Source of the DNA: Tsukamurella sp. 1534
Lineage (GTDB): Bacteria; Actinomycetota; Actinomycetes; Mycobacteriales; Mycobacteriaceae
Direction of reading: 5' to 3'
DNA: 64,000 nucleotides
Assembly (NCBI RefSeq): GCF_000312385.1
Contig: NZ_HE997626.1
Location: 1,456,572-1,520,571 of the forward strand
Shown here piece by piece: positions 16,806-20,599 of the stretch (position 1 is its first letter; each line of letters begins with the position of its first letter). Below the pieces are notes generated by a model. The model saw only the letters and a program-made list of their open reading frames with translations. It was not told the DNA's origin and made no database searches. The position numbers were made by a program, and so were the translations under genes.

Positions 16806-16890
16806 GGAAGTGTGGCAGAGCGGCCGAATGCACTCGCCTTGAAAGCGAGCGTGGGTGAAACCACCGGGGGTTCAAATCCCTCCACTTCCG
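16806..16890 (+). tRNA. tRNA-Ser (anticodon TGA)
   Basis: An 85-base class II tRNA. The acceptor GGAAGTG (16806-16812) pairs with CACTTCC (16883-16889), the discriminator base is G, the anticodon loop is CTTGAAA and GGTTCAAATCC is the T-arm. The long variable arm (GTGGGTGAAACCAC) marks it as tRNA-Ser. CCA is not encoded. TACGAT at 16791-16796 is a likely -10 box only nine bases upstream. The 245 bases from here to the P450 start hold no gene that I can support. Confidence 0.97.
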
Positions 16891-17135
16891 CCCAGTTCGG
16901 GGAGCGCGGAGCGCGAGGCAGACGTGTGCCTCTTGTCGTGTACCCGGTAGCCGCTGGCTCCGGGGGCGTCCATCGCATGGTGCGGCCAGCCGTCGAGGGT
17001 GCGAGGCGATGGGGCGAGGCTTCGATCGATTTTCGGCCCGGCGGCCGATCGAATACCAGAAACCCGGCCGCGCGACGTGACGGACGGCTTAGTTTGGGTA
17101 CGTCCACACATCTTCGTTCGCAAGGCGGTTGGACC

Positions 17136-19556
17136 ATGCGCTTTCTCGAACGGGTCATCAACAAGGCCCAGGCAACCATCCCGATGGAACGGCAAGTGCA
17201 GGGCTTGCACCTCTTCCAGAAGGCCAAGACGATGGCTCTGGGTGACCGGCAGCCGGACTTCGTCGAGGAGGAGATCCCCGACGTCGACGCGGTGACGCTG
17301 ACAGAGATCGACATGAGTAACCCGTTCATGTGGCGGCAGGGCCAGTGGCTCCCCTACTTCGAGCGCCTGCGCAACGAGGCGCCGGTTCACTTCCGGGCGT
17401 CGAGCGAATTCGGTCCGTACTGGTCGGTCACGCGGTACGACGACATCGTCACGGTGGACCGCGACTTCGAGACCTACTCGGCCGAGCCGCAGATCGTCAT
17501 CGGCGTACCGCCAGAGGGCCTGGACATCGAGATGTTCATCGCGATGGACCCGCCACGCCATGACGTGCAGCGCGGGGCGGTCCAGGGCGTCGTGGCACCG
17601 CAGAATCTCGAGGAGATGCAGGGACTGATCCGGTCGCGCGTCCAGGAAGTCCTCGACGACCTGCCGGTCAACGAACCGTTCGACTGGGTGGACAGGGTCA
17701 GCATCGAGCTGACATCCCGCATGCTCGCCACCCTGCTCGACTTCCCCTATGAGGAACGGCGCAAGCTCGTGCACTGGACCGAGTTGGCAGGCGCCAGCGC
17801 CGCGGCCACCGGCGGCGACGTCGACATGGACGAGATGTACCAGGGTGTCGCCGAGATGGCGAAGAGCTTCAGCGACCTGTGGCACGACAAGGCGGCGCGC
17901 CTCAAGGCGGGCGAGAAGCCGGGATACGACCTGATCACCCTGATGCAGATGTCCGAGGACACCAAGGACCTGATCAACAGGCCGATGGAATTCCTCGGCA
18001 ATCTGATCCTGCTCGTCGTGGGCGGGAATGACACCACTCGCAACTCGATGTCGGGCGGCGTGTACGCCCTCAACCTGTTCCCGGACCAATTCGATCGTCT
18101 CAAAGCCGATCACAGCCTGATCCCGAAGTTCGTCCACGAGAACATCCGCTGGCAGACGCCGCTGGCCTACATGCGGCGCATCGCCAAGAAGGACACCGTC
18201 CTGAACGGTCAGTTCATCCGCAAAGGCGACAAGGTCGTCATGTGGTACGCCTCGGCGAACCGGGACGAGCGCACCTTCGAGAACCCGGACGACTTCATCA
18301 TCGACCGGCACAACGCCCGCCACCACCTCTCGTTCGGCATCGGCGTGCACCGCTGCATGGGCAGTCGCGTGGCCGAACTGCAGCTGCGGATCCTCTGGGA
18401 GGAATTGCTCGCGCGGTTCGCGGACATCGAAGTGGTGGACGAGCCGGAGTACCTCCAGTCGAACTTCATCCGGGGTTACACGAAGATGATGGTCACGTTG
18501 ACGCCGATCGGGCAGGAGCCTCGCCCCCGCGACCAACGGCCCCTGCAGCCCGCCGCGGCACGGACTCCCGTTCGTCAACCGATTCGTCGCTCCCGCGAAG
18601 CGACCACCACCACCGAGACGGAAGTCGACGTTCAGGTCACGGGCCGGCGCGAGGTGGCGGACGGGGTCGTCGAGCTCACGCTCGGCGACCCGGCGGGTGC
18701 ACCGCTTCCGTCGTGGACTGCCGGGGCGCACATCGACCTCCTCCTGGAGCCGTCGCTGACGCGGCAGTACTCGCTGTGCGGCAGCGCCTCGGACGAGTCG
18801 TCGTGGAAGATCGGCGTCCTTCGCGACCCGGACAGCCGGGGTGGCTCGGCGTTCGTACACGAGAAGCTGACGGAGGGTGCGACGGTGCGCGTGCGTGGTC
18901 CGCGCAATCACTTCCCCTTGATCGCCTCCGCGAACTACCGATTCGTCGCGGGCGGCATCGGGATCACTCCGATCCTCCCGATGATCGAGGCCGCCGAGGC
19001 GCGTGGGGCGAAATGGAGCCTGCTCTACTGCGGCCGCTCCCGCGAGTCGATGGCGTTCCTGGACCGATTCGAGGACTCCGAGCGGGTCACGATCTGGCCG
19101 AGCAGCGAGAACGGTCGGATCGACCTGGCTGCGACGCTCGGAACGCCCACACCGGACACGGTGGTCTACTGTTGCGGCCCAGGCAATTTCCTCGACGCCG
19201 TGGAGGAGGCGTGCGCGCCGTGGCCCGACGGCAGCCTGCACATCGAGCGCTTCGCGGCCAAGGAGGTCGCGGCGTCCGAGGATGCGCTCGACTCGTTCGA
19301 GGTCGTGTGCTCGCGCTCGGGAGTGACGGTGACCGTTCCGGAAGGCACCACGATCTTCGACGCGGTCGAGAAGGCCGGCGTCGACGTGCTCGGATCCTGC
19401 ATGGAAGGCATCTGCGGCACCTGTGAGGCCGACGTGCTCGAGGGCACGCCGGAGCACCGTGACTCGATCCTGTCCAAGGCGGAGAAGGAACGTGGCGACA
19501 CGATCATGCTCTGCGTTTCCCGTTCCCTGTCGAAGAAGCTGGTGCTGGACGTATGA
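17136..19556 (+). CDS. CYP153-like cytochrome P450 fused to a phthalate-type reductase (self-sufficient P450)
   Basis: One 806-residue protein carries a whole electron chain. Residues 1-460 are a P450: the I-helix motif is GGNDTTR near 298, the EXXR motif falls in HENIRWQTP, and the heme signature FGIGVHRCMG puts the thiolate at Cys407. The text of this domain (FIAMDPPRHDVQR, LGNLILLVVGGNDTTRN, RKGDKVVMWYASANRD) is that of CYP153 terminal alkane hydroxylases. After an Arg/Pro/Thr linker (about 460-495) come an FMN domain (RQYSLCGS), an NAD(P)H domain (GGIGITPILPMI, YCCGPG) and a plant-type [2Fe-2S] domain with Cys755, 760, 763 and 793. The ATG at 17136 is preferred because the upstream frame runs through the tRNA. 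The Rieske gene overlaps its stop. Confidence 0.9.
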   Translation: MRFLERVINKAQATIPMERQVQGLHLFQKAKTMALGDRQPDFVEEEIPDVDAVTLTEIDMSNPFMWRQGQWLPYFERLRNEAPVHFRASSEFGPYWSVTRYDDIVTVDRDFETYSAEPQIVIGVPPEGLDIEMFIAMDPPRHDVQRGAVQGVVAPQNLEEMQGLIRSRVQEVLDDLPVNEPFDWVDRVSIELTSRMLATLLDFPYEERRKLVHWTELAGASAAATGGDVDMDEMYQGVAEMAKSFSDLWHDKAARLKAGEKPGYDLITLMQMSEDTKDLINRPMEFLGNLILLVVGGNDTTRNSMSGGVYALNLFPDQFDRLKADHSLIPKFVHENIRWQTPLAYMRRIAKKDTVLNGQFIRKGDKVVMWYASANRDERTFENPDDFIIDRHNARHHLSFGIGVHRCMGSRVAELQLRILWEELLARFADIEVVDEPEYLQSNFIRGYTKMMVTLTPIGQEPRPRDQRPLQPAAARTPVRQPIRRSREATTTTETEVDVQVTGRREVADGVVELTLGDPAGAPLPSWTAGAHIDLLLEPSLTRQYSLCGSASDESSWKIGVLRDPDSRGGSAFVHEKLTEGATVRVRGPRNHFPLIASANYRFVAGGIGITPILPMIEAAEARGAKWSLLYCGRSRESMAFLDRFEDSERVTIWPSSENGRIDLAATLGTPTPDTVVYCCGPGNFLDAVEEACAPWPDGSLHIERFAAKEVAASEDALDSFEVVCSRSGVTVTVPEGTTIFDAVEKAGVDVLGSCMEGICGTCEADVLEGTPEHRDSILSKAEKERGDTIMLCVSRSLSKKLVLDV

Positions 19557-20599
19557 ACGACACCGCCCGGAATCATCCCGCCGTCGACTATCCGAGGGAC
19601 TGCTGGTACGTCGTCGCCACCGTTGCCGAGGTCGGATACGGATTCACCGCGCGGCGCGTCCTCGACACACCGGTCGTGCTCTTCCGCCTCTCCGACGGCA
19701 CGGTCGCCGCGCTGGAGGACCGCTGCGCGCATCGGCCCTACCCGCTGTCGGCCGGACACCGCGAGGACGACTTCATCGTGTGCGGCTACCACGGCTGCAC
19801 CTACGACGCGACCGGGCGCTGGGTGAGCGTGCCGTCCCAGGACAACCCGCCCTCCGCGCGGGTGCGAGCCTTCCCGGTCGTCGAGCGCGGACCCTTCGTC
19901 TGGATCTGGGTTGGGACGCCCGGCGGCGAGCGGTTGCGGCCGCCGCCGACGACACCGTGGTTACACGGTGACGGCTGGTCGAGCGTCGGGGAACGGCGCG
20001 AGGTGGCCGCCAGCCTGCAGTTGCTGCACGAGCACTACCTCGACCTCTCCAACGTCTTCGCGATGCACCCGGAGATGGTGCCGCCCGGCATCGAGGCGCT
20101 GCCGCCGCTGGAGGACGTCGAGGTGTCCGAGGTCTCGGTCTCCTACCGGCGAGAACTGCCCGAGGCGCCGCTGGCTCCGTGGGAAGCCGGGGTCACCGGG
20201 ATCGACGATGCCACTGTGGCAACGTCATTCGGTCGGACGGAGACGGGCACGTTCGTGACGCCGGGCCTGCACAAGCAGACCTACAGCATCATCGGTACGG
20301 CCGGCCCGGAGCTGGAGCTCGTGCGGACTCACGGTTTCACACCGCAGTCGTCCGGAGTCACCCATGTCTTCCTACAGATCTCGTGGCGGGGCGCTTCGGT
20401 CTCACTCGACATCGGCGAGCAGTTGATCGCGGTCTTCCGCGCGATGGCAGACCGGGACGCCGCCGTGCTCGAGACCATGCAGCGGTGCCTCGACGAGGAC
20501 CCGATCCCACGGCGCTACGTCAACGTCAAGGCGGACCGGGCCGCTGTACGCGCGCGTCGGATCCTGACGGCGATGGTGGAAGACGAGCGGGGAAACTAG
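19553..20599 (+). CDS. Rieske non-heme iron oxygenase alpha subunit (VanA-like), altered iron site
   Basis: A 348-residue ring-hydroxylating or O-demethylase-type oxygenase. The Rieske cluster ligands are Cys58, His60, Cys77 and His80 (CAHRPYPLS, then CGYHGCTYD). The catalytic mononuclear iron motif is normally N-x2-D-x2-H-x4-H; here it reads H161-Y-L-D164-L-S-N167 and then H172, so the first histidine ligand is Asn. The start codon overlaps the stop of the P450-reductase (ATGA), so translation is coupled. No separate reductase gene is adjacent; the phthalate-type reductase fused to the P450 is of the class that normally serves VanA-type oxygenases and could serve both. Substrate unknown. Confidence 0.88.
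   Translation: MNDTARNHPAVDYPRDCWYVVATVAEVGYGFTARRVLDTPVVLFRLSDGTVAALEDRCAHRPYPLSAGHREDDFIVCGYHGCTYDATGRWVSVPSQDNPPSARVRAFPVVERGPFVWIWVGTPGGERLRPPPTTPWLHGDGWSSVGERREVAASLQLLHEHYLDLSNVFAMHPEMVPPGIEALPPLEDVEVSEVSVSYRRELPEAPLAPWEAGVTGIDDATVATSFGRTETGTFVTPGLHKQTYSIIGTAGPELELVRTHGFTPQSSGVTHVFLQISWRGASVSLDIGEQLIAVFRAMADRDAAVLETMQRCLDEDPIPRRYVNVKADRAAVRARRILTAMVEDERGN

Follow-up and report, generated by a model that had tools for sequence, protein, structure and literature searches.

Does a locus of Tsukamurella sp. 1534 encode a natural self-sufficient CYP153A monooxygenase and, if so, from which kind of reductase was it built? The locus lies within a stretch of 64,000 nucleotides of contig NZ_HE997626.1 (positions 1,456,572 to 1,520,571, forward strand), which is called the window throughout. 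Positions 17136 to 20599 of the window had been read in a first-pass annotation as a CYP153-like cytochrome P450 fused to a phthalate-type reductase. The fusion is real, but it stops at 19556 and covers only part of the interval, in which a second gene, for a Rieske protein (19553-20599), had been missed. We consider it probable, from comparative sequence analysis, that the fusion is a natural self-sufficient CYP153A monooxygenase, most likely fused once from a reductase gene that was coupled to a Rieske gene.

The fusion gene begins with an ATG at 17136 and closes with a TGA at 19554-19556. Along the encoded 806-residue chain Pfam recognizes p450 (best stretch 328-428), NAD_binding_1 and Fer2, in that order, and the chain carries the motifs FGIGVHRC (containing the thiolate Cys407), GGNDTTR at residue 296, ENIR at 335, RQYS at 543 and GGIGITP at 606. 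The flavin would be flavin mononucleotide (FMN), judging from the reductase family, and with this assignment the protein has the class VII architecture, in which FMN, NAD(P)H and [2Fe-2S] domains are attached to the C-terminus of a P450. Conservation differs along the chain: 226 of the 457 columns of the heme domain and 98 of the 312 columns at residues 495-806 are invariant, compared with one of the 37 columns in the linker region (458-494). The four cluster cysteines given in the first-pass annotation (755, 760, 763 and 793) were correctly numbered.

The identity of the heme domain was established by comparison with proteins of known structure. Its best PDB match is 5fyf, to which it is 65.1% identical (295 of 453 aligned positions, covering residues 5-457 of the chain); it also matches 3rwl, which carries the table name CYP153A7, with 446.7 bits. 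We take 5fyf to be the CYP153A of Marinobacter aquaeolei. By the P450 naming rule, at least 40% identity to named members indicates the same family and at least 55% the same subfamily, and the identity to 5fyf places the domain in subfamily A of CYP153, in keeping with the CYP153-type heme domain proposed from the sequence alone. Membership of CYP116B by heme domain, which had been raised as the outcome that would overturn that proposal, is ruled out by identities of 23-29% to the heme domains of three plasmid fusions (L109-L111) that we take to be CYP116B-type from their annotation and this low heme identity. Unfused CYP153A genes gave heme identities of 68-70% for three-component operons (L106-L108), and of 83% and 74% for two genes of Skermania (L066 and L117, respectively).

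A scan of genome contigs with the 806-residue protein returned 51 distinct loci, and in 31 of them (L038-L065, L067, L075 and L087) both halves occupy one open frame with a best-segment identity of at least 68%. The fusion set assembled for analysis comprised 47 locus records, including a plasmid record (L089), that represent 35 distinct sequences without a single internal stop; loci found later (L127-L136) stand outside these counts. The fusion occurs in Tsukamurella, Gordonia, Nocardioides, Marmoricola, Actinomycetospora, Williamsia, Rhodococcus, Rhodococcoides, Jongsikchunia and Solimonas, of which Solimonas is gammaproteobacterial and the remaining genera are actinobacterial. Counting the source genome, it was detected in 6 of 16 genomes of the genus and, with three candidates scored for each genome listed, in 4 of 298 from the order, where nine others held an unfused match only, at E 1e-150. 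Four genomes of the genus (G006, G008, G009 and G015) have fusion sequences identical to those at L038, L039, L041 and L089, which come from named Tsukamurella strains. Among 245 genomes of the Nocardioides family (at most four candidates scored in each) it was detected in 11, two of which were already in the set, and one additional genome (G749) has the two halves apart. A second kind of fusion suspected in genomes G738 and G741 (42-44% over the full length) was rejected when their open reading frames showed separate adjacent genes.

Within the 35 distinct sequences, 20 of 23 tested motif columns are invariant, among them the heme cysteine, the Asp-Thr pair, the ExxR motif and the four cluster cysteines. 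The remaining three vary little: R543 is Lys in two sequences, I610 is Val in one and C679 differs in two. These are counts over aligned columns, used in place of a strict motif pattern that only 19 of the 47 records passed. The ratio of nonsynonymous to synonymous substitution rates (dN/dS) is well below 1 for heme and reductase domains alike, both in fusions that have a coupled Rieske gene and in those that do not.

A Rieske gene is coupled directly downstream in 21 of the 35 distinct fusions and is lacking in the other 14. The fusion stop and Rieske start overlap as ATGA in the window and, again by four bases, as ATGA (18 loci) or GTGA (2 loci) at all 20 other Rieske-bearing fusion loci examined, and the same stop/start overlap is found in all five standalone reductase-Rieske pairs examined, from eight such pairs found. 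When the 14 genomes holding a fusion without a coupled Rieske gene were searched, 11 gave no match at E 1e-15 and three gave a match at 30-31% identity; no Rieske copy above 31% identity was found in them. Across 296 sampled genomes of the phylum, with at most seven candidates scored in each, a Rieske match at E 1e-45 was found in the source genome only. The Rieske-less fusions are those of Solimonas L050, Rhodococcus L052, Marmoricola L053, L135 (genome G618; status read from its 1.5-kb flank only) and a clade of Williamsia, Rhodococcus and Gordonia. They are scattered and do not form one clade in a heme tree built with a near outgroup, which has many open forks, and this distribution suggests several Rieske losses.

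The Rieske protein of the window has the CxH and CxxH ligands of a Rieske cluster. The canonical mononuclear-iron site of such oxygenases is a 2-His-1-carboxylate triad, read as NxxDxxHxxxxH plus an Asp, and this triad is not present in the window protein. The fusion-coupled proteins share the consensus HEHYLDL(S/T)N....MH, to which DNVMDLSHIDHVH of 7qwt and DNLMDLGHAQYVH of DdmC align. In 21 of 21 distinct fusion-coupled Rieske genes (28 rows when near-copies are included) the first mononuclear His is replaced by Asn167 and the canonical Asn by His161. The column of the usual Asp holds Val or Leu in the coupled set, and an invariant Asp286 stands three positions on, as counted by eye on the alignment. 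His161 is also found in the relatives L076, L077, L078, L079 and L112, in which position 167 is Asn, Asp, His, His and Tyr, respectively; the relatives L113 and L124-L126 keep the canonical residues at the altered positions. Either the ligands of the mononuclear site are permuted, which would give a changed ligand set, or the site no longer holds iron. The Rieske genes gave dN/dS values of 0.12-0.23 in 11 of 12 chosen pairs, the twelfth being not computable.

An unfused row of P450 (best PDB matches CYP125 and CYP124), reductase and Rieske genes was observed separately in the Nocardioides family (L157, 3824-7317). By eye, its Rieske protein is missing both mononuclear His residues and reads CGLC where CxxH is expected.

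The origin of the reductase was approached through its nearest relatives. The best PDB matches of residues 491-806 are the P450 chains 6kbh and 6laa, presumably CYP116B enzymes, followed by 2pia, phthalate dioxygenase reductase, and the phthalate-type reductase that had been proposed for the same chain is thereby borne out. The unfused reductases of highest identity come from Antrihabitans (L076, 63%) and Skermania (L077, 64%), and each is followed by a Rieske gene. Eight standalone Rieske-coupled reductases in all show 58-64% identity to the fusion reductase, compared with 46-48% for the reductases of the three CYP116B-type fusions. In Skermania sp. ID1734 (genome G314) close relatives of both halves exist as separate genes on different contigs (L066, L117 and L077).

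In the near-outgroup heme tree, 27 fused rows together with a split gene (L158) form one clade with a support of 98.9 in the Shimodaira-Hasegawa-like approximate likelihood ratio test; just outside it stand the unfused Skermania genes, L066 and then L117. The reductase trees likewise contain one fused clade, with support of 99 in a first tree and 98.1 in a later one that included the split gene. In the first reductase tree L076 and L077 adjoin the fused clade (support 89), and in the later one its sister group consists of five Rieske-coupled reductases together with L082, L088 and L028 (supports 84-86). Fused rows numbered 37 in the first heme tree and 34 in the first reductase tree; the 27 of the later trees remained after near-copies were dropped. 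For the near-outgroup heme tree, the approximately unbiased (AU) test rejects the fused rows alone as a clade (p 0.0014) because the split gene is nested among them. A single fusion event is favoured by these comparisons, not proven, and the same grade applies to a Rieske-coupled ancestor of the reductase.

According to the proposed working, electrons would pass from NAD(P)H to FMN, on to the C-terminal [2Fe-2S] cluster and finally to the heme, all within one chain, and the heme would hydroxylate the terminus of a medium-chain alkane or of a fatty-acid-like substrate. This intrachain path and the terminal hydroxylation are predicted from knowledge of the families and from an engineered CYP153A-CYP116B3 construct. 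That the reductase serves the heme is argued by its continued fusion in all 14 Rieske-less sequences. An in-frame fusion of a CYP153A gene onto the 5′ end of a reductase gene, itself in translational coupling with a Rieske gene, would have given rise to the present gene. Many of the fusions, including that of the window, retain the Rieske gene and the 4-base overlap, and others are without it and still fused. The coupling and the ancestry suggest that the same reductase could have the Rieske protein as an additional electron acceptor, which it would once have served and may still serve. A more elaborate form of this proposal is that the fused reductase feeds both the CYP153A heme of its chain and, in trans, a Rieske protein that either uses permuted ligands (His161 replacing the residue at 167, Asp286 replacing the usual Asp) or has given up its mononuclear iron and now serves the P450 as electron relay or regulatory subunit; we regard this as doubtful, if worth keeping in view.

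Several observations weigh against a self-sufficient enzyme fused once from a Rieske-coupled reductase, and some of them lend themselves to other explanations. It could be that the 806-residue chain is an assembly artefact joining two genes, and a relative in genome G749 (L137/L158) does show a TGA in the linker, between a CYP153A half and a reductase half that share one frame (L158, 5463-7886); this is either a natural split or a sequencing error. An artefact of this kind has next to no probability for the window gene, since the survey for the same domain order found the junction open and stop-free in 35 distinct sequences, which disposes of the sequencing error that the first-pass annotation had allowed for. 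A first heme tree, rooted on L084, put unfused CYP153A genes inside the fused set. L084 is a very distant row, with an end branch of ~4.5 changes per column, and for this reason less weight is given to that tree and the nearer outgroup is preferred. All of the trees are of a quick kind, built without bootstrap. In the later reductase tree, L082 and L088, which sit with L028 in the sister group, have a P450 and not a Rieske gene as neighbour. Finally, the AU test did not reject a group made of the fused and the three CYP116B-type reductases (p 0.069), and it is for this reason that descent from a Rieske-coupled reductase is favoured and not proven.

The last result would suit a CYP116B-type fusion whose heme domain was swapped for a CYP153A, leaving a reductase of CYP116B descent, and so would the two P450 fusions that head the PDB matches of the reductase. 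We hold such a swap to be very unlikely: the fusion reductase is less similar to the three CYP116B-type reductases than to all eight standalone Rieske-coupled ones, and the latter stand nearer in both reductase trees. A different view of the locus is that the reductase works mainly for the Rieske protein, the fusion serving to co-express or co-locate two oxygenases while other ferredoxins feed the heme. The 4-base overlap common to fusions and standalone reductase-Rieske pairs is consistent with this, as is the Rieske coupling of the unfused reductases of highest identity. However, the 14 of 35 fusions without a Rieske gene, in genomes that offer no close copy, keep the reductase domain at dN/dS values of 0.19-0.22 (four pairs computed), and service chiefly to the Rieske protein is an unlikely explanation. 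A further point against self-sufficiency comes from the engineered CYP153A-CYP116B3 construct, which hydroxylates dodecanoic acid; the accessible text of that report describes poorer coupling than in a construct with the BM3 reductase and no conversion of octanoic acid (PMC3815936). Both results indicate that a phthalate-family reductase on a CYP153A is not automatically efficient.

CYP153 fusions as such were already known, as predictions from genome sequences. According to the accessible part of a 2022 review (PMC8918992), Nie et al (2014) described in silico an N-terminal CYP153, a ferredoxin reductase and a C-terminal ferredoxin in three Gordonia strains (G. polyisoprenivorans VH2 and NBRC 16320, and G. 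araii NBRC 100433), and the same review states that BLAST shows numerous other CYP153 fusions; the first-pass annotation was thus mistaken in implying that no natural CYP153 fusion had been reported. Two of the three strains are represented in our set (L046, G. araii NBRC 100433; L054, G. polyisoprenivorans NBRC 16320). The Gordonia fusions have the same domain order as that of the window, and the accessible part of the review mentions no Rieske gene, no origin of the reductase and no assay of the fusions. Two research papers of 2025, in the parts available, give CYP102 and CYP116 as the self-sufficient bacterial families (PMC12126322, PMC11889516). In the listed part of the results of a literature search (titles and abstract openings, largely of papers outside subscription journals), we found no coupled Rieske partner, no distinction of Rieske-bearing and Rieske-less types and no altered iron motif, nor any account of Rieske loss with the reductase still fused or of the likely origin.

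The locus can also be compared with several other known systems. Class VII CYP116B enzymes (P450 RhF, CYP116B46) share with the window fusion the order of heme, FMN, NAD(P)H and [2Fe-2S] domains and a reductase of the same broad family, but they belong to another P450 family by heme domain, whereas many CYP153A fusions carry a coupled Rieske gene. The three-component CYP153A operons L106-L108 have similar heme domains; unlike the fusion, they encode a separate ferredoxin and a separate reductase dependent on flavin adenine dinucleotide, together with an AraC regulator. The engineered CYP153A-CYP116B3 chimera follows the same domain plan as the natural fusion but is artificial, whereas in the natural fusions the linker is one of their own and the reductase resembles the Rieske-coupled ones more closely. 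Rieske oxygenases of the VanA/VanB and DdmC kinds combine Rieske and VanA_C domains with a phthalate-family reductase, as at the window locus, where in contrast the reductase is fused to a P450 and the mononuclear-iron ligand positions are altered.

Coordinates of the features of the fusion-Rieske locus, in window positions.
Feature	Position	Strand	Basis
CYP153A-reductase fusion gene, 806 aa	17136..19556	+	Single open frame; P450, then NAD(P)H-binding, then [2Fe-2S] domains
CYP153A heme domain, residues 1-460, thiolate Cys407	17136..18515	+	PDB sequence match 5fyf; motifs
Linker, residues 461-490, Pro/Ala/Arg-rich, variable	18516..18605	+	Column conservation
Phthalate-family reductase domain, residues 491-806: predicted FMN, NAD(P)H and [2Fe-2S] modules	18606..19553	+	PDB matches
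[2Fe-2S] ligands Cys755, 760, 763, 793	19398..19514	+	Invariant in 35/35 distinct fusions
ATGA overlap, fusion stop / Rieske start	19553..19556	+	Window sequence
Rieske (VanA_C) partner gene, 348 aa	19553..20599	+	Pfam; ATGA overlap with the fusion
Rieske cluster ligands CAH (58-60), CGYH (77-80)	19724..19792	+	Sequence
Altered mononuclear-iron motif HEHYLDLSNVFAMH, residues 159-172	20027..20068	+	Alignment to 7qwt and DdmC

The surroundings of the unit vary within the genus, as it stands after a tRNA-Ser gene in the window (16806-16892) and after nrdE in Tsukamurella tyrosinosolvens (L089, 9665-14421). A clustering of all neighbouring open reading frames yielded mostly shadow frames, and only a convergent TetR gene, recognized by Pfam, was retained from it. 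In 15 of the 35 distinct loci, of both types (for example L057, 8469-9023), this gene immediately follows either the fusion or its Rieske gene; a search of the window for it at E 1e-8 gave no match. In Solimonas a similar regulator is divergent from the fusion (L049, 4686-5696; L050, 4820-5854); that of L049, the one assigned by Pfam, is AraC-type, as in the three-component CYP153A operons. The source genome (4.5 Mb) holds a further P450 at G000:C1:339931-341163, inside an open frame of 915 codons.

Self-sufficient P450s are sought as catalysts, and the value of terminal hydroxylation has led to the engineering of CYP153A fusions. Such fusions already exist naturally, in at least 35 distinct sequences that are under purifying selection. 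Because close relatives of the two halves are found in Skermania as separate genes, the stepwise rise of self-sufficiency could be traced, and the coupled Rieske protein with its changed iron site makes it possible to ask directly whether two oxygenases are driven by a single fused reductase.

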